Source: Acidimicrobiales bacterium (lineage in GTDB: Bacteria; Actinomycetota; Acidimicrobiia; Acidimicrobiales; MedAcidi-G1). Taken from it: a stretch of 64,000 nucleotides of DNA. The translations under genes were made by a program, and so were the position numbers. A model generated the notes under the pieces. It was given only the letters and a program-made list of their open reading frames with translations, was not told where the DNA came from and did not search any database. Where the stretch lies: positions 1 to 64,000 of the forward strand of contig JAAZZG010000007.1 of the NCBI GenBank assembly GCA_014237715.1, given 5' to 3'. Shown piece by piece: positions 46,245 to 54,515 of the stretch (positions are counted from its first letter, which is position 1; every line of letters starts with the position of its first letter).

Positions 46245-47414
46245 ATGACGGACACGACGATCACCGAGGGTCCAACCAAGGTTGCGGCACGGAAGGCCTT
46301 CGGTGAGGTCGAAACCGAACTCCGGGACCTCTCGCGGTGGATGTATGAGAACCCCGAGTTGGGATACGAGGAGTTCGAGGCGTCGGAACGCTTGAGTTCG
46401 TTCCTGGGGCGCAACGGCTTCGACGTGACCTATCCCAGTCACGGACTGGACACGGCCTTCGAGGCGACCGCCGGGACCAGCGGGCCACGGGTCGTCATCT
46501 GCTGCGAGTATGACGCCCTGCCTGAGGTAGGGCACGCCTGCGGCCACAACATCATCGCCACCTCGGCTGTCGGTGCCGGCGTAGCCCTCGCCCCGCTGGC
46601 CGAGGAGTTGGGCATCCGGGTCACCGTGCTGGGCACCCCGGCCGAGGAGGGTGGCGGCGGCAAGGTCGAGCTGATCGAGGCCGGTGCCTTCGAGGACGCC
46701 GCAGCGTCGATGATGGTCCACCCCGGCCCCTACGACGAACTGGATCCGTCGTTCCAGGCGTGTCAGCACTACGACGTCGAGTTCTTTGGCAAGGACTCCC
46801 ATGCGGCCTTTGCCCCGGAGGAAGGGATCAACGCCCTGGACGCTTTCGTGCAGGCTTACGTGAACATTTCCACCCTACGCCAGGCCATGGTTGACGACGA
46901 TCGGATCCACTGCAAGGTGACCCGCGGTGGTGACGCCGTTAATGTCGTGCCGTCGCATACGAAGTCCGAGTGGCTGATCCGCTCGGGCAGCGTGGAGCGT
47001 CTCGCCGAGTTAATTCCCAAGGTGAAGGCGTGCTTTGAGGGGGCGGCCATTGCCACCGGCTGTCGGTTCGAGTGGCACGAGACGGCCCATCCATACGAGA
47101 GCATGCGAAACAACGACGTCATGACCGACCTGTACGCCGCCAATTCGGAGGCCATCGGTCGGCCCATGCCCACCCACGCCGAACAGGGTGGGGGCTCGGG
47201 TTCGTCGGACATGGGCAACGTCAGCCAGATCGTCCCGTCAATCCATCCGATGCTTGGCATGGACTGCGGCGACGCCGTCAACCACCAGCCCGAGTTCGCC
47301 GACCGGACCGTGGAGCCCGGCGGGGAGTCGGCGCTGCGTGACGGGGCGCTCGGCATGGCGTACACCGTGATTGACATGGCCGAACAGGACGTCTGGGACA
47401 GACTCGGGGCCTGA
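46245..47414 (+). CDS. M20-family amidohydrolase (AbgB/IAA-amino-acid-hydrolase-like)
   Basis: A 389-aa metallohydrolase. 'LRDLSRWMYENPELGYEEFEAS' near residue 28 is the M20D start. Metal ligands are expected in 'VGHACGHNIIAT' (Cys/His, about 97-108), 'GTPAEEGGGGK' (Glu pair, about 131-141), a His in 'SMMVHPGP' and one near the end. The dimerisation insert is at about 175-290. In this family the enzyme cleaves an N-acyl or amide bond (for example p-aminobenzoyl-glutamate or N-acyl amino acids). It is followed 4 nt later by ABC-transporter ATPases, which suggests that it processes the imported substrate. Confidence 0.87.
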   Translation: MTDTTITEGPTKVAARKAFGEVETELRDLSRWMYENPELGYEEFEASERLSSFLGRNGFDVTYPSHGLDTAFEATAGTSGPRVVICCEYDALPEVGHACGHNIIATSAVGAGVALAPLAEELGIRVTVLGTPAEEGGGGKVELIEAGAFEDAAASMMVHPGPYDELDPSFQACQHYDVEFFGKDSHAAFAPEEGINALDAFVQAYVNISTLRQAMVDDDRIHCKVTRGGDAVNVVPSHTKSEWLIRSGSVERLAELIPKVKACFEGAAIATGCRFEWHETAHPYESMRNNDVMTDLYAANSEAIGRPMPTHAEQGGGSGSSDMGNVSQIVPSIHPMLGMDCGDAVNHQPEFADRTVEPGGESALRDGALGMAYTVIDMAEQDVWDRLGA

Positions 47415-47418
47415 ACCG

Positions 47419-48459
47419 ATGACGGTGGACCCCACGCCGGTCCTGCGGGTCACCGACCTGACGACGCGGTTCAACACCCAGGACGGGACGGTGCACGCCG
47501 TCAACGGGGTGTCGTTCGACCTGGCCGACGGGGAGGTTCTCGGCGTGGTCGGCGAGAGCGGCTCAGGCAAGAGCGTCACGATGATGTCGCTGCTGCGGCT
47601 CATCCCCACACCGCCCGGCGAGATTTTGGCCGGCCAGGCGATCTTCGAGGGCGACGACCTTCTTTCGATGGACCTGGGGGACCTGCGGAAGGTGCGGGGC
47701 GGCAAGGTCGGCTTCATCTTCCAGGATCCGATGACATCGCTGAACCCGGTGGTCACCGTGGGCGACCAGATCGTGGAGTCCCTCGCCGTCCATCAGCCGG
47801 GTCGCCGGAAGGCGATGCGGCTACGGGCGCTTGAACTGTTGCAACTGGTCGGCATCCCGTCTCCGGAGGAGCGCCTCCGGTGCTACCCCTACGAGTTGTC
47901 CGGTGGGATGCGCCAGCGGGTGATGATCGCCATTGCCCTGGCCTGCAACCCGAAGGTCCTAGTGGCCGACGAGCCCACGACAGCCCTCGACGTGACCATT
48001 CAGGCCCAGATCCTGGAGTTGGTGAAGGGCCTCCGAGAGAAGCTTGGCATGGCGGTGATCTGGATCACCCATGATCTCGGCGTGGTGGCCGGCCTGGTCG
48101 ACCGGGTGCTGGTCATGTACGGCGGCCAGATCGTGGAGGATGCGCCGGTCGACGAGTTCTATGCCCAGCCCCGCCATCCATACTCACAAGGCCTACTGGC
48201 TTCGCTACCGTCGGCCACCTCCCGTGGGGACAAGCTGGTCAACATCCAGGGGCAGCCTCCGGATCTCCGGTCGGCGCCCGCCAGTTGTTCATTCGCTCCC
48301 CGATGCCCGCACGCCTTCGACCGATGCGACCGGGAGAACCCGGTTCTGGCAGCCGTTTCGGCGACTCGAAAGGTCGCCTGCTGGCTAGACGAGGTGCCGG
48401 TACTGGTCGGCGCCCAGAGCGACGAGACAGCCAAAGGGCAGGTCGGCCATGGACGCTGA
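47419..48459 (+). CDS. Peptide/nickel-type ABC transporter ATP-binding protein (DppD/OppD)
   Basis: A 346-aa ATPase. Walker A is 'GESGSGKSV' at about 45-53, Q-loop '[13 protein letters not shown]', signature '[13 protein letters not shown]', Walker B '[15 protein letters not shown]' and switch His in '[11 protein letters not shown]'. The C-terminal oligopeptide-transporter domain has the Cys-rich '[14 protein letters not shown]', which in DppD-type proteins binds an iron-sulfur cluster. First of two ATPases in the order D-F-A-B-C; overlaps the next gene by 11 bases. Confidence 0.93.
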
Positions 48460-49480
48460 GATGACGGTCGTGCAGGAACAGGCAGCTGAAGCACCCGAAA
48501 TGCCTGAGGTACTGGTCTCGGTTCGTGATCTGAAGAAGCACTTCCCTGTGACCAAGGGCGCTCTCCGCCGCAAGGTCGGCGCCGTGCGGGCCGTCGACGG
48601 CGTGTCGTTCGACATCATGCGTGGTCAGACCCTCGGTCTGGTCGGCGAGTCGGGGTCAGGCAAGTCGACCATTGGTCGCACCCTCCTGCGTCTCGAGGAG
48701 CCGACGGAGGGCACGGTGGTCTTCGATGGCGGCGACATGGCCGAGCTGTCGGCCAGGGGGCTCCGAAAGGTCCGGCCGCGGATGCAGATGGTCTTCCAAG
48801 ATCCACATGCCTGCCTCAATCCGCGGATGACCGTCAGTTCGATCATCGGTGAGCCCCTCGTCGAGCACCTCTCGATGACGTCGCGTGAACGCAACGAACG
48901 TGTCGAGGAGTTACTCGGACTGGTAGGGCTGAACCCTGAGCACGCAAACCGCTACCCCCACGAGTTCTCGGGTGGGCAGCGTCAGCGAATCGGCATCGCC
49001 CGGGCCATTTCCCTGAACCCCGATCTCATCGTGTGTGACGAGCCGATCGCCGCCCTCGATGTCTCCATCCAGGCTCAGGTGGTCAACCTGATGGAGGAAC
49101 TCCAGGACCTGCTGGGCCTGACCTACCTGTTCATCTCGCACGACCTGGGCATGATCCGCCACATCGCTGACCGGGTGGCAGTGATGTACCTCGGCCGGAT
49201 CATGGAGTTGGCTGACGTCGACAGCCTCTACGACAACCCGTTGCATCCCTACACCCGGGCGTTGCAGTCTTCGGCGCCCGTTCCCGATCCGGCTGTCGAG
49301 GCCACCCGGGAGAAGATAGTGCTCGAAGGCGATATCCCCAGCCCCTCGTCACCCCCACCAGGTTGCGTGTTCTCCACCCGGTGTCCCGAAGCCGTCGACC
49401 GGTGCCGGAGTGAGGTGCCCGTCTGGCGCGAAGTGTCTCCCGGCCACGGCGTGGCCTGTCATCTGGTACCGGCCATCTAG
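48449..49480 (+). CDS. Peptide/nickel-type ABC transporter ATP-binding protein (DppF/OppF)
   Basis: A 343-aa ATPase, partner of the preceding gene. Walker A 'GESGSGKST', '[16 protein letters not shown]', signature '[13 protein letters not shown]', Walker B '[14 protein letters not shown]' and '[11 protein letters not shown]' are intact. '[29 protein letters not shown]' is the OppF-type N-terminus. The C-terminal domain has '[14 protein letters not shown]'. ATG 48449 or the in-frame ATG at 48461 may be the start. A 200-nt gap with its own promoter follows before the binding protein. Confidence 0.93.
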
Positions 49481-49585
49481 CGCCGCCCTTATGACAGAGG
49501 CTTCTGGGGCTTGATATCGGGCCCCGCCGTCGCCTTTGGGGTTCTGACCAGCGGGAATCGTCGTCTAATCGTCATGGGCGACAAG

Positions 49586-49614
49586 TTGAGCGTTCGGTTC
49601 TTAGGTGATAAAAG
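49586..49614 (+). promoter_or_regulatory. Candidate promoter for the binding-protein gene
   Basis: TTGAGC (49586-49591), 17-nt spacer, TAAAAG (49609-49614), in a locally AT-richer 198-nt gap after the second ATPase. It would give the abundant binding protein its own transcript with a leader of roughly 65 nt. The stretch 49481-49585 holds nothing else that I can support. Confidence 0.35.
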
Positions 49615-49665
49615 TCACGTAATCATTTGGAGGGGAAGTTCGGCTGAATGGTCGTGCTTCGAAAC

Positions 49666-49671
49666 GAGGGG
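49666..49671 (+). promoter_or_regulatory. Shine-Dalgarno GAGGGG fixing a TTG start
   Basis: GAGGGG lies 7 nt before TTG 49679. The following Lys-Lys and hydrophobic run are a normal lipoprotein signal peptide, so starts further upstream in the open frame are rejected. Confidence 0.75.
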
Positions 49672-49678
49672 AATCACC

Positions 49679-52429
49679 TTGAAGAAAATTATTCGTCTGG
49701 TCGCCGTACTAGCGGCCCTTACTTTGGTTGCGGGGGCATGCGGCAGCGACGATGACGCAGCTGCTCCTGCAGCGACCGAGGCTCCGGCAGCGACCGAGGC
49801 TCCGGCAGCGACCGAGGCTCCGGCCGAGTCGCTGTCCGAGTTGAACGTGGCGTACTTCCTGGAGTGGCCGACGGCCAACCAGGTCGCCCAGGTTGAAGAG
49901 ACCTACGACGAGCGTCTCGGCATGACCGTGAACTGGCTGCCGTTCGGTTCCGGCGGCGACATGGCGTTGGCCATGGAGTCCGGCGACATCGACATTGCCT
50001 ACAGCCAGGGCTTGACCCCGTTCGCCAACTTCGTGACCTCCGGTTCAGAGCTGGAGATCGTCGGCGTGGCCGTGAGCTACGCAGACGCCGACAACTGCGT
50101 AGCCCATCCGGATTACGGCGTGACGGCGGCCAATGCGGCTGAGACGCTGGCCGGGCAGAAGGTCTACGCCCCGGTCGGCAACGTCACCCACTACAAGTTG
50201 CTGAAGATGCTGGGCCACCTCGGTGTGGCGCTGGACAGCTTCGAGCACGTTCCGTCTGACGGTGGTGCGGCAGCGGTCGCAGCCTTCGAGAGCGGCGACG
50301 TGGCCATGGCCTGTGCGTTCGGCGGCGGTGTGCTGTCGATGCTGGCTTCCGGCGGCAACCTGGTGATGACCGGTTCGGAGCAGGAGGACATCGGTATCCG
50401 GGTCTTCGACATCATCTCGATTCCGACCCAATTCGGCATCGATCATCCGGGCGTCGTGGAGACGTTCCTGCAGGTGACCGAGGAGGCCAACGCGGCCTAC
50501 GCCGGTGGCCGCCGTGCCCTGGAGGCCACGATCGCCGACGCGGCGGGGATGACGGTGGAGGGCTCCAACGCCCTGCTGGACATGTTCTCCTTCCCGGATC
50601 GGGCGACCCAGTTGTCCGACGCGTGGTTGGGCGGGACCGTCCAGGACGTGATGAAGCAGCAGATGGACTTCTTCGTCGAGCAGGGTGAGATCCCCAAGGC
50701 GCTCGACAGCTACGACGCCTTCGTGAACACGTCGTTCCTGAGCAACATCAGTGACGTCGAAGTCGTGATGACGTCCAGCGGCGCCGGCGAAGGCGGCACC
50801 GTGACCATCCTTTACTGGCAGGCCGCATCCACCCTGAACGCGTACCTGTCGGGTGGCTGGAAGGACCGTGATGCTTCTTCCGTGATCCTCGAGCCGTTGG
50901 CCGAGTTCGATGACCAGGGCGTGCTCGTTCCCGCGCTGGCCACCGAGATCCCGACGGTTGCCAATGGCGGCGTTTCCGAGGACTTGACCAGCATCACATG
51001 GAAGTTGCACGAGGGTGTGGTCTTCTCTGATGGCACCCCGTTGACCTCCGACGATGTGGTCTTCAGTTGGGAGTACTGCTCGAATCCCGATACCGGCTGC
51101 ACCGGTGCATCGGGCTTCGACGGTGTGACCTCTGTGGTTGCTGACGACGATCTCACGGTCACGATCACCTTTGCTGAGGCGACTCCGTTCCCCTACGTGC
51201 CGTTCGTTTCGAACAGTTTCCCGGTCATTTCTCGGGCCCAGTTCGGCGACTGCGTGGGCGCGGCCTCGGCCGAGTGCACGGATGAGAACTTCGGTCCGAT
51301 CGGTACTGGTCCGTTCAAGATCGAGTCGTTCACCACGAATGACACCGCGGTCTACGTCATGAACGAGAACTACCGCGGCGTGCCCGACGGTAAGCCCTAC
51401 TTCGGGCGTGTCGTGATCAAGGGCGGCGGCGATGCTCCCTCGACGGCCCGCTCCGTTCTGGAGCTCGGTGAAGCCGACTACGCATGGAACCTGCAGGTCG
51501 AGCCGGAGATCCTGGCCAGCATGTTGGCCGGCGGAAAGGGCAAGGTCATCTCGGCTTTCTCGACCATGGTCGAGCGCATGATGGTCAACCAGACCAACCC
51601 GGATCCGGACCTCGGCGACGACCGTTCCGAGTGGCTCGACGGCACCAACCCCCACCCGTTCCTTACCGATCCGGTGGTCGGCCGTGCCCTCTCCATTTCC
51701 CTGGACCGTCAGACCATGGTCGACGTCGGTTACGGCGAGGCCGGTCGTCCGACGTGCAACGTGTGGCCTGCGCCGCCCGCCCAGACGTCGACGTCCAACG
51801 ACGAGTGTCTGACCCAGGACATCGATCTGGCCAACCAGTTGTTGGACGATGCTGGCTACCTCGACACCGATGGTGATGGGGTGCGCGAGACGCCCGACGG
51901 CATGCCGATGAAGATCCTGTACCAGACGTCCACCAACACGGTGCGTCAGGCCACCCAGGAGCTCGTCAAGCAGGACTGGGCCAAGATCGGTGTGGATACC
52001 GAACTTCGAAACATCGATGCTTCGGTGTTCTTCGGTGGCGATCCGGGTAGCCCGGACACCTACGGCAAGTTCTACGCCGACATCGAGATGTACACCAACG
52101 GTGCAGCTGGTGTGGACTCGCAGGCCTACATGGGCAGCTGGACCTCGTCGAACATCAGCGGCGAGAGCACCAATTGGCAGGGCAGCAATGTTCAGCGCTT
52201 CCAGAGCGACGAGTACGACGCTCTGTACGCCGAGCTGACCCAGACAGCGGACATCGATCGCCGCAACGAGATCACCATTGCCCTGAACGACTTGGTGGTT
52301 GGCAACTACTCGATCATCCCGTTGATCCACCGGGGCAGCGTCTCGGCAGCGTCCAACTCGCTGACCGGGTACAAGCTCAACCCATGGGATGCAGAGTTGT
52401 GGAACTTGGAGGAGTGGGCTCGGGACTAA
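49679..52429 (+). CDS. Fusion lipoprotein: TauA-like binding protein joined to a DppA-like (SBP_bac_5) binding protein
   Basis: A 916-aa extracytoplasmic protein, about the sum of two binding proteins. Signal peptide 1-20 precedes lipobox Cys21 ('VAGAC'); an Ala/Thr/Glu/Pro repeat linker spans about 27-50. Residues about 53-355 resemble taurine/nitrate-type TauA ('LNVAYFLEWPTANQVAQVEE', 'GDIDIAYSQGLTPFANF', 'VTHYKLLKMLGHLG', ending 'YDAFVNTSFL'). After a Gly/Ser linker (about 362-373), residues 375-916 are a full family 5 peptide/nickel-type protein ('VTILYWQAASTLNAYLSGGW', 'WKLHEGVVFSDGTPLTSDDVVFSWEY', 'GPIGTGPFKIES', 'LTGYKLNPWDAELWNLEEW'). No second signal peptide lies at the junction. The adjacent permeases and ATPases are Dpp-type only; no TauB/TauC is near. 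Ligands are unknown. Confidence 0.9.
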   Translation: MKKIIRLVAVLAALTLVAGACGSDDDAAAPAATEAPAATEAPAATEAPAESLSELNVAYFLEWPTANQVAQVEETYDERLGMTVNWLPFGSGGDMALAMESGDIDIAYSQGLTPFANFVTSGSELEIVGVAVSYADADNCVAHPDYGVTAANAAETLAGQKVYAPVGNVTHYKLLKMLGHLGVALDSFEHVPSDGGAAAVAAFESGDVAMACAFGGGVLSMLASGGNLVMTGSEQEDIGIRVFDIISIPTQFGIDHPGVVETFLQVTEEANAAYAGGRRALEATIADAAGMTVEGSNALLDMFSFPDRATQLSDAWLGGTVQDVMKQQMDFFVEQGEIPKALDSYDAFVNTSFLSNISDVEVVMTSSGAGEGGTVTILYWQAASTLNAYLSGGWKDRDASSVILEPLAEFDDQGVLVPALATEIPTVANGGVSEDLTSITWKLHEGVVFSDGTPLTSDDVVFSWEYCSNPDTGCTGASGFDGVTSVVADDDLTVTITFAEATPFPYVPFVSNSFPVISRAQFGDCVGAASAECTDENFGPIGTGPFKIESFTTNDTAVYVMNENYRGVPDGKPYFGRVVIKGGGDAPSTARSVLELGEADYAWNLQVEPEILASMLAGGKGKVISAFSTMVERMMVNQTNPDPDLGDDRSEWLDGTNPHPFLTDPVVGRALSISLDRQTMVDVGYGEAGRPTCNVWPAPPAQTSTSNDECLTQDIDLANQLLDDAGYLDTDGDGVRETPDGMPMKILYQTSTNTVRQATQELVKQDWAKIGVDTELRNIDASVFFGGDPGSPDTYGKFYADIEMYTNGAAGVDSQAYMGSWTSSNISGESTNWQGSNVQRFQSDEYDALYAELTQTADIDRRNEITIALNDLVVGNYSIIPLIHRGSVSAASNSLTGYKLNPWDAELWNLEEWARD
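49769..49822 (+). repeat. 18-bp in-frame tandem repeat in the lipoprotein linker
   Basis: Three perfect copies of GCAGCGACCGAGGCTCCG encode Ala-Ala-Thr-Glu-Ala-Pro. The unit is a multiple of three, so copy-number change would only lengthen or shorten the tether. Confidence 0.9.
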
Positions 52430-52458
52430 TTGTCCTGACCTGATCTGAGAACCGTCAG

Positions 52459-52512
52459 ACCGGAGGGGCCCGCGGCATACTGTGCCGCGGGACCCTCCGG
52501 TCGGGTTCGTTT
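52459..52512 (+). terminator. Strong intercistronic hairpin between binding protein and permease
   Basis: ACCGGAGGG/CCCTCCGGT and CCCGCGGCA/TGCCGCGGG form a stacked 18-bp stem with one G-A mismatch and loop TACTG, followed by a GTTCGTTTT stretch. It lies 29 nt after the binding-protein stop and before the permeases, a place where attenuation or 3'-end protection usually keeps binding protein in excess. Confidence 0.7.
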
Positions 52513-52567
52513 TCGGCGGGATCCCGCCTCATGATTTCGGCCCGCGAGGCGAGAGAGGGGGAGGGAG

Positions 52568-53578
52568 ATGCTCTGGTTTATCGGTCGCCGAGCGGCGATT
52601 GCCGTGCCGACGCTGGTTGCCATCAGCTTCATCATCTTCGCCATCCTTGATCTGGCGCCCGGCGATCCAACCTCCCACCTGCCGCTAACCATCCCCCGAG
52701 AGGTTCGGGAACAGATCCGCGAGTCCATGGGGGTCAACGACCCGTTCCTGGTCAAGTGGCTCCTGTGGGTCAAGCAGGTCATGATCCACGAGCCAATCAG
52801 CCTGATCGAACAGCTATTCAACGTCCAGATCGGCAGCGGCGAGCGGACCCGGGTCATCTCCTGGCAGTCACGAGGTCCGGTGGTCGAGACCATTGCGGAG
52901 CGTCTTCCCCAGACCACATGGGTGATGGGCCTGGCCTTCGTGTTCGGGATCCTCATTGCCGTGCCGGTCGGCGTCATCTCGGCCTACAAGCAGTACTCGG
53001 TGTTCGACCAGATCGGCACCTTCGTCTCGATGGTGGGCTACTCGGTGCCGACCTTCTTCACCGGCCTGTTGGCCATTGTCATCTTCAGCGTGAAGCTGGG
53101 CTGGTTCCCGTCGTACTACGACACGACGCTCGAGGTCACCGACTGGAGTTCGTTCGTGGCCCAGATCAAACAGATCGTGCTCCCAGTGGGCGTGCTCTCA
53201 ATGTTCAACGCCGCGGCCCTAAGCCGGTTCACCCGGTCGTCGATGCTGGACAACCTCTCGGAGGACTACGTCCGGACAGCTCGATCCAAGGGCCTCAAGG
53301 AGAAGCGGGTCTTGGTGCGCCACGTGTTGCGCAACAGCCTCATCCCGGTTGTCACCCTGATCGCCCTGCAGGTGCCGGGGATCTTCGCCGGTGCCCTCAT
53401 CACCGAACAGATCTTCCGGATCAACGGCATTGGTCACCTGCTGATCAGCTCGATCCACGGTGGTGACATTCCGATGGTTCAGACGCTGTCCTTCCTGATC
53501 GCCGCACTCACGGTGCTGTTCAACCTCGTCGCCGATGTGGTCTACGGGATGCTCGACCCGAGGATCCGTTATGACTGA
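52568..53578 (+). CDS. Peptide/nickel-type ABC transporter permease (DppB/OppB)
   Basis: A 336-aa inner-membrane permease with about six helices. 'IGRRAAIAVPTLVAISFIIFAILDLAPGDP' is helix 1 of DppB/OppB; the EAA loop is 'DYVRTARSKGLKEKRVLVRHVLRN' near residue 235; 'GALITEQIFRINGIGHLLISSI' is the conserved last segment. A soluble loop of about 70 residues (50-110) is longer than in E. coli DppB. The start has a GAGGGAG stretch directly upstream. It overlaps the second permease by 8 bases. Confidence 0.93.
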   Translation: MLWFIGRRAAIAVPTLVAISFIIFAILDLAPGDPTSHLPLTIPREVREQIRESMGVNDPFLVKWLLWVKQVMIHEPISLIEQLFNVQIGSGERTRVISWQSRGPVVETIAERLPQTTWVMGLAFVFGILIAVPVGVISAYKQYSVFDQIGTFVSMVGYSVPTFFTGLLAIVIFSVKLGWFPSYYDTTLEVTDWSSFVAQIKQIVLPVGVLSMFNAAALSRFTRSSMLDNLSEDYVRTARSKGLKEKRVLVRHVLRNSLIPVVTLIALQVPGIFAGALITEQIFRINGIGHLLISSIHGGDIPMVQTLSFLIAALTVLFNLVADVVYGMLDPRIRYD

Positions 53579-54515
53579 GCCCAAGGTCCACGCGAGCCGG
53601 GAGGTGGTCGCCGCCACCGCGTCGGGAGCGGGCCCCAAGCACCGGTCGCTCCGCGGCGACGTCTGGCGCCAGTTCCGCCGTCACAAGGGCGCCCTCGTAG
53701 GCCTGTGCGCCTTCATGTTCGTGACGGTGGCCAGCTTCGTCGGGCCGTACCTGATGCCCTACGACGCGGTCGAGATCGACATCAAGATGCGAAACCTCAG
53801 CCCGACGTGGAGCCATCCGTTGGGCACCGACAATCTGGGCCGTGACATGGTGGCCCGCTCCATGGTTGGGGGCCGTATTTCACTGCTGGTGGCCATCACG
53901 GCCATGGCGTTGTCGGTCTTCCTGGGCACCACGATCGGTGTTCTGGCCGGGTTCTTCAAGCGGCTCGACGGGGTGCTCATGCGCCTCACCGATCTGTTCC
54001 TAGCCCTGCCGGTGCTGCCCCTTTTGCTGGTCATCATCATGTTGTTCCGTGACAGCCTGCGGGCCACCTTCGGTCCGGAACAGGGCATCTTCATGCTCAT
54101 CGTGTTCATCATCGGCATCACCAGCTGGATGCAGACCGCCCGGGTGGTACGGGGCGAGGTGCTGACCATCAAGCAGCAGGAGTTCGTGGCCGCCGCCCAC
54201 AGCATCGGAACCCGGCGCCGCAACGTGATCTTCCGCCACATCCTGCCCAACTGCCTCAGCCCGGTCATGGTCGCCGCGGCGCTCGGCATGGCGGTCGCCA
54301 TCATCACTGAGTCGGCGCTGTCGTTTCTGGGTCTCGGGTTCCCGTCGGACTTCCCGACGTGGGGTCGGCTGCTGTACGACGGTAAGGACTTCATCAACCT
54401 GACCCCGATGCGGGTCGTCGGACCGGGCGTGCTCATCTCGCTCACCGTGATCAGCGTCAACTTCATCGGCGATGGCCTACGGGACGCACTGGACCCCAAG
54501 CTTCGTAGCCGTTGA
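53571..54515 (+). CDS. Peptide/nickel-type ABC transporter permease (DppC/OppC)
   Basis: A 314-aa permease, partner of the preceding gene. The N-terminal cytoplasmic stretch is followed by 'WRQFRRHKGALVGLCAFMFVTVASFVGPYLMPYD', the OppC/DppC start; 'HPLGTDNLGRDMVARSMVGGRISLLV' is the diagnostic motif; the EAA loop is 'EFVAAAHSIGTRRRNVIFRHILPN' near 205; 'ALSFLGLGFPSDFPTWGRLLYDG' closes the domain. The stop codon lies in the first of three 8-bp tandem repeats. Confidence 0.93.
   Translation: MTEPKVHASREVVAATASGAGPKHRSLRGDVWRQFRRHKGALVGLCAFMFVTVASFVGPYLMPYDAVEIDIKMRNLSPTWSHPLGTDNLGRDMVARSMVGGRISLLVAITAMALSVFLGTTIGVLAGFFKRLDGVLMRLTDLFLALPVLPLLLVIIMLFRDSLRATFGPEQGIFMLIVFIIGITSWMQTARVVRGEVLTIKQQEFVAAAHSIGTRRRNVIFRHILPNCLSPVMVAAALGMAVAIITESALSFLGLGFPSDFPTWGRLLYDGKDFINLTPMRVVGPGVLISLTVISVNFIGDGLRDALDPKLRSR

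Follow-up and report, generated by a model that had tools for sequence, protein, structure and literature searches.

A lipoprotein fusing TauA-type and DppA-type substrate-binding domains, and its apparent place in a genus-wide set of mosaic receptors in Acidimicrobiales

The window analysed here, the first 64,000 nucleotides of contig JAAZZG010000007.1 of an Acidimicrobiales bacterium (assembly GCA_014237715.1; its genome is called G000 below, with C22, C30 and the like denoting its contigs), contains a gene at 49679-52429 (+) whose product joins two unlike classes of substrate-binding protein, TauA and family 5 DppA, in one lipoprotein with a single anchor. Judging from sequence comparison, this fusion is one of a genus-wide set of mosaic "poly-SBP" (substrate-binding protein) lipoproteins, in which six binding-protein families are combined, with two to four or more domains in each chain. 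We consider it probable, with considerable room for doubt, that this one lipoprotein works as two independent nutrient receptors, was made by domain insertion and belongs to the mosaic set.

The gene is a single open frame of 916 amino acids, running from a TTG start to its stop codon with no internal stops. Its N-terminus consists of a signal peptide and lipobox (LKKIIRLVAVLAALTLVAGAC; 49679-49741, +) of DppA type, a very similar signal peptide heading the free-standing DppA of genome G012. The lipobox, LVAGAC at residues 16-21 with Cys 21, was recognized by reading the sequence, not by a predictor, and marks the product as a bacterial lipoprotein. Behind it lies a low-complexity linker of AATEAP (Ala-Ala-Thr-Glu-Ala-Pro) repeats (49763-49824, +; an 18-bp unit repeated 3.4 times according to Tandem Repeats Finder), followed by a TauA-like, taurine-type domain of residues 52-354 (49832-50740, +). 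Residues 57-353 are homologous to the solved taurine-binding protein 6ssy (E 1e-18), and this half aligns with the free-standing TauA of G019 and G021, to which it is 71-79% identical. A junction linker (SNISDVEVVMTSSGAGEGG; 50741-50797, +) then leads into the DppA/OppA-like family 5 domain (50798-52426, +), where Pfam SBP_bac_5 (PF00496) matches residues 416-826 (E 1.1e-66; 225.9 bits against a cut-off of 32.4) and the free-standing G012 orthologue is 88% identical. Its solved relatives are many family 5 proteins, and because the best of them is a chitin-oligosaccharide binder (1zty), found beside peptide binders, the ligand of this half need not be a peptide. The first-pass annotation of this DNA had described two such classes in one frame behind a single signal peptide and lipobox, which the open frame and the 6ssy and SBP_bac_5 matches bear out, and the Ser-Gly-Ala-Gly-Glu-Gly stretch that it placed at the junction is present at 50777-50794. 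An ATG at 50768, within the junction, could be an internal start for a free DppA half, but the resulting protein would have no signal peptide. A scan of 49400-52700 gave no promoter-like site, and terminator-like sites numbered 2 against 1.7 expected.

When the TauA half was used as a query, 16 of 61 genomes (G000 included) had matches at E 1e-10, some of which comprise the signal peptide and linker only. The TauA-DppA architecture, which it had been proposed to look for in independent genomes, was found in G002 (916 aa), G014, G015 and G016, making five genomes with G000; the G015 contig breaks off after 120 residues of DppA, and the G016 contig starts within the TauA half. All five share the reading frame across the junction, where their DNA is also nearly identical. 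Between the window and the four relatives, the ratio of nonsynonymous to synonymous distances (dN/dS, NG86) lies between 0.05 and 0.09 in the TauA half and between 0.05 and 0.11 in the DppA half (the G015 value for DppA being based on 115 residues). Purifying selection acts on both halves, and the fusion is kept by selection. Two genes wrongly joined during assembly, a worry raised in the first-pass annotation, might be suspected in a draft of 75 contigs with a repetitive linker, and many related contigs do end within such genes. However, the right junction, which is not a repeat, recurs in frame in five genomes that have diverged to an ordinary degree, the flanks are colinear, and two of the five genomes match records of different projects (G014, JAAZXY010000007.1, bin26s; G016, DPMC01000166.1, UBA12569). 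This effectively rules out an artefact at the right junction, and we give a chimera almost no credence.

How the fusion arose can be approached by comparing gene orders. The order M20-DppD-DppF-[binding protein]-DppB-DppC is common to the window, G002, G014, G001 and G012. In G001 and G012 the binding-protein slot is occupied by an unfused DppA that has a signal peptide and linker of its own and shares 88% identity with the DppA half of the window, and a windowed identity profile against these two genomes shows homology on both sides and none across the TauA stretch. The signal peptide of the fusion is similar to that of the free-standing G012 DppA, the one of G001 being of another type. As G001 and G012 are colinear without the TauA stretch, and the signal peptide is of DppA type, the fusion is most simply explained by insertion of a TauA domain behind the signal peptide and linker of a DppA, ahead of the mature domain. 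The earlier suggestion that a tauA 3' end had fused to a dppA gene without signal peptide thus holds for the fusion itself, whereas an insertion accounts better for how it came about. Separate orthologous genes, named beforehand as a sign against the fusion, do exist in the case of dppA (G001 and G012, each with its own signal peptide), but they represent the state without the insertion and not an artefact. The inserted piece ends in ISDVEVV, which is absent from free-standing TauA, while I(S/D)DVEVV ends the TauA part of three TauA-LivK fusions; this shared end points to a donor that was probably a fusion module itself. Since the left joint falls within the low-complexity linker, repetitive linkers are the likely recombination point on that side. 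Synonymous distances (dS) differ between the halves in opposite directions: G000 and G002 are separated by 0.192 in TauA and 0.076 in DppA, G000 and G014 by 0.351 and 0.504, respectively. This is a hint of separate histories and not a formal test. Divergence in the upstream flanks of G002 is similar to that of its TauA half, and in a tree of TauC, G000, G002, G016 and G014 group together, the positions of G015 and G012 being unresolved.

The wider set of mosaic proteins was sought in 17 genomes of the genus. A frame on C30 of G000, open at its 3' end, reads signal peptide-TauA-Peripla_BP_6 (BP6 below)-OpuAC-start of another OpuAC; G020 carries TauA-BP6/ANF-Bmp, open at both contig ends; and TauA-LivK fusions are present in G001, G012 and G013. 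BP6 gave 51 matches in 15 of the 17 genomes, 20 of them in frames of at least 700 amino acids, all of which were read. A second binding domain, certain or probable, shares the frame in 17 of the 51: the three TauA-LivK fusions, C30, two BP6-NMT1, one NMT1-LivK, five BP6-SBP_bac_5 and five BP6-BP6-like. C-terminal halves of three of the last five were tested, and Pfam recognized Peripla_BP_6 in them only below threshold (E 0.0008-0.0044), so they are called probable. OpuAC gave 22 matches in 13 of the 17 genomes, 11 of which fall into ten frames of at least 600 amino acids. These are C30, four Bmp-SBP_bac_3-OpuAC (L273, L274, L276 and L044, with L273 running on into the start of a further OpuAC where its contig ends), one Bmp-SBP_bac_3-OpuAC-SBP_bac_3 (L270, open), one OpuAC-OpuAC, one OpuAC-SBP_bac_5, and two whose N-terminal halves have no Pfam match and were left unclassified (L275, L277). 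As for SBP_bac_5 (39 matches, 13 of the 17 genomes), 21 matches are joined to another binding domain or its tail: four to TauA, five to BP6, one each to OpuAC, Bmp and SBP_bac_3, and nine on contigs that start in a tail resembling the BP6 module. The DppA piece of G015 (C218) was left out of this count. BLAST confirmed the BP6 tail in three of the nine (L303, L308, L309), and the other six have a short string in common before the junction, by pattern in L304, L306, L310, L311 and L312, and more loosely, by eye, in L307.

The BP6 module is 73-89% identical to its G013 copy, within genus and family. Repeats of this module would explain why contigs end in it, in which case the mosaic counts are too low. 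Contig ends recur inside mosaic binding-protein genes (L303, L304, L306-L312, L091, L092, L096-L099), as would be expected from repeated modules or from structural variants in the population. The remaining three of the 20 long BP6 frames, from three genomes, join the BP6 module, which stands first in many of the mosaics, to a beta-lactamase-family (PF00144) hydrolase (C3 of G000, L266:2418-5087; L264:3067-5580; L265:2183-5173), assigned with Pfam for L264 and L266 and by reading for L265. At the start of C30 (L028:1-188) there is a 60-bp tandem repeat, which lies in an unrelated frame on the reverse strand.

For a control we turned to 59 genomes of the order, 58 of which had BP6 matches; it covered BP6 only. 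Among the best BP6 matches listed, seven frames of at least 700 amino acids lay outside the family, and all seven were fetched: six are single binding proteins behind an out-of-gene frame, and one is a true BP6-BP6 fusion (L295, G342). The latter (L295:2-2518) comes from another family of the order and a small genome (2.0 Mb). A scan of named genomes kept 80 loci of at least 569 related stretches, and the frames of 40 of the 80 were examined. Ten of these are multi-domain, namely the two TauA-DppA records, the G020 record, L116, L118, L122 and four loci of Chloroflexi/Anaerolineae; two more long frames (L129, L137) stand outside this count. L116, L118 and L122 are TauA-TauA, L122 lying on a 1.7-Mb contig and L118 (titled Sva0996) coming from what we take to be a member of Acidimicrobiia. 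The Chloroflexi/Anaerolineae loci comprise four closely similar tandem TauA domains in 1395 amino acids (L125, 2728-6912, Anaerolineae), two TauA domains with a third across a run of N (L127), TauA-TauA with a C-terminal part that reads like BP6 and has no Pfam match (L128), and TauA-BP6-SBP_bac_3-BP6 in 1444 amino acids (L133). L127 and L128 adjoin TauB, TauC and sulfoacetaldehyde acetyltransferase. Multi-TauA forms occur in other Acidimicrobiia, and both multi-TauA and mixed forms in Chloroflexi. TauA of the type found in the fusion was matched at E 1e-60 in 14 of 296 genomes of the class.

Within the window the fusion gene is surrounded by genes for two oligo_HPY ATPases and two BPD_transp_1 permeases, the operon make-up typical of family 5 binding proteins. 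Upstream lie an M20-type amidohydrolase/peptidase (46245-47414, +; PF01546 and TIGR01891 over cut-off), conserved beside the Dpp operon in relatives, a DppD-type ATPase (47371-48459, +; ABC_tran and oligo_HPY, best NCBIfam match OppD, below cut-off; the true start may be later) and a DppF-type ATPase (48449-49480, +; ABC_tran and oligo_HPY, with the dipeptide ATPase model NF008453 over cut-off). Downstream follow a DppB-type permease (52568-53578, +; PF00528) and a DppC-type permease (53535-54515, +; PF00528 and OppC_N; its true start possibly lies further downstream). Dpp, Tau, Tpa and Pta are names taken from the best match or from gene order, with several NCBIfam equivalog models scoring below cut-off (TauC, 239.6 versus 342; TauB, 277.3 versus 357), and Liv, MarR, dehydrogenase, ligase and OpuA ATPase/permease were named by eye, with Pfam run for LivH, LivM and LivF only.

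The genes of a taurine-type importer are found in other places. Free-standing TauA adjoins TauB, TauC, an aminotransferase and a phosphotransacetylase in G021 and G019. The taurine genes of G001, G012 and G013 lie in one island together with those of a branched-chain-type importer; over the stretches available the order is ligase-LivH-LivM-[TauA-LivK fusion]-LivF-LivG-MarR-dehydrogenase-aminotransferase-TauB-TauC-Pta. The arrangement in G007 is identical, with the contig end falling within the TauA part. The island slot is filled in G014 by a complete LivK alone (470 aa), and in G000 and G002 by an OpuAC end joined to LivK where the contig stops, and all three of these genomes, with no TauA-LivK in the slot, bear TauA on DppA (the slot was outside view in G015 and G016). 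G007 and G013 yielded no close DppA. On C22 of G000, tauB, tauC and their neighbours (aminotransferase and phosphotransacetylase genes) are kept with no TauA among them, and the fused TauA is the sole TauA-domain match at E 1e-10 in G002, G014, G015 and G016. Of 41 genomes, 14 have TauC, among them all eleven of this set with a TauA match of at least 300 residues and all five with the fusion. As tauBC is kept without tauA, and the fusion is the sole TauA-domain match in four genomes, it is most likely that the TauA half would feed TauBC in trans and the DppA half the adjacent Dpp permease. The first-pass annotation was right that only Dpp permeases are adjacent, but its idea of a second sensor is weakened by tauB and tauC on another contig without tauA, transport in trans being likelier. 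Also in G000, C66 (L043:2283-11525) carries ligase-LivH-LivM, behind which come first an OpuAC lipoprotein whose signal peptide is of LivK type and then genes for an OpuA-type ATPase and permease, and LivK-LivF-LivG lie on C22 behind an OpuAC end. This split reflects either a rearrangement via OpuAC copies (88% DNA identity) or a misjoin.

In the scheme that we favour, the DppA half would bind peptides or a peptide-like solute and hand it to the DppBCDF importer encoded around the fusion gene, and the TauA half would bind taurine or a close sulfonate and pass it on to the TauBC importer, whose genes lie in another part of the genome. The TauA domain, presumably already a fusion module in the genus, would have been inserted between the DppA linker and the mature part, with recombination on the left side via repetitive linkers, and the mosaic set may arise by shuffling whole substrate-binding domains. 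The benefit might lie in fewer anchors and secretion events, a fixed stoichiometry and a high local density of receptors near permeases. Several observations weigh against this scheme. The TauA half stays below Pfam cut-offs (NMT1_2, 19.9 versus 24.7 bits; OpuAC, 20.6 versus 21.2); free-standing TauA orthologues score just above (L036, 20.8) or below (L038, 16.7) the Pfam NMT1 cut-off of 20.5. The right joint is not a repeat, and the genes adjoining the fusion are only of Dpp type, with tauB and tauC on C22. The second TauA-type domain of G000, on C30, could serve TauBC instead, and G006 has TauBC and no TauA-domain match, though perhaps only because its contig ends short of the slot. Finally, among the counted mosaics five second domains are BP6-like and nine are represented by short tails, and the genus genomes used are drafts of at least 50 contigs, which often end inside such genes.

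It could also be that the TauA half no longer takes part in transport and serves the DppA half as sensor, spacer or docking domain. That Dpp genes are the only adjacent permease genes would agree with this, as would the very different partners of TauA- and BP6-type modules (for BP6, even a beta-lactamase-family hydrolase), as if some of them were general-purpose. Yet the TauA half is under purifying selection (dN/dS 0.05-0.09 among the fusions), and tauC is present in all five fusion genomes, four of which have no other TauA domain; we therefore regard a non-transporting TauA half as rather unlikely. Less plausible still is a selectively neutral accident of a genome with frequent linker recombination: there are many combinations, and partners differ between close relatives, but the TauA-DppA form has been kept over substantial divergence (dS 0.07-0.50), and a mixed mosaic (L133) is also known from Chloroflexi and multi-TauA forms from other Acidimicrobiia. 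A polyprotein, cleaved after export into two binding proteins, might be imagined from the glycine-rich junction, which could be exposed, and from the many different domains strung together. We find this very improbable, as the lipid anchor is on the first domain only and the phylum is taken to lack an outer membrane, so that freed domains would be lost unless held in the wall, and no shared cleavage motif was seen by eye across the different junctions.

Tandem substrate-binding domains as such are familiar; those of GlnPQ belong to one family, whereas the fusion takes its domains from different families (TauA type and SBP_bac_5). Its TauA half is homologous to the TauA of TauABC (6ssy family), and tauB, tauC, aminotransferase and phosphotransacetylase genes are present in the genome, but instead of standing alone next to TauBC it forms part of a peptide-binding lipoprotein encoded in a different operon. 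Similarly, the DppA half resembles DppA/OppA working with DppBCDF in its Pfam family 5 membership and in the order of DppD-, DppF-, DppB- and DppC-type genes, while an extra taurine-type domain of 300 amino acids lies between anchor and peptide domain. GlnPQ of Lactococcus has two substrate-binding domains for different ligands, fused to a transmembrane permease, which act largely independently in tandem (PMC8025302). The fusion likewise has two binding domains, presumably with different ligands, in one chain with a flexible linker, but its frame contains a lipid anchor in place of a permease domain, its permeases being separate genes. Binding proteins of ABC and TRAP systems fused to their own transporter, that is, to membrane parts, are described as well (PMC8276074); here, in contrast, unlike binding proteins are fused to each other. 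In the open literature, as far as its text was accessible and with subscription papers and preprints outside its cover, we found no account of lipoproteins that join unlike binding-protein classes.

The larger find is the mosaic class itself. More tentatively, the lineage may possess a combinatorial receptor system in which repetitive lipoprotein linkers and reused domain modules recombine continuously, giving its populations ever-changing multi-receptor "antenna" lipoproteins, each feeding several importers from one anchor; we consider this possible rather than likely. Substrate-binding proteins are usually treated as one protein with one ligand and one importer, and from their numbers the diet of environmental bacteria is inferred. 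Unlike binding domains strung together break this rule, best-hit annotation hides half of the receptors, and mosaic receptors go missing from draft genomes, whose contigs break within the repeated modules. Should the two halves indeed work independently, such proteins would offer a test case for whether tethering receptors near several importers aids uptake at very low nutrient levels, as well as natural templates for multi-ligand sensors.

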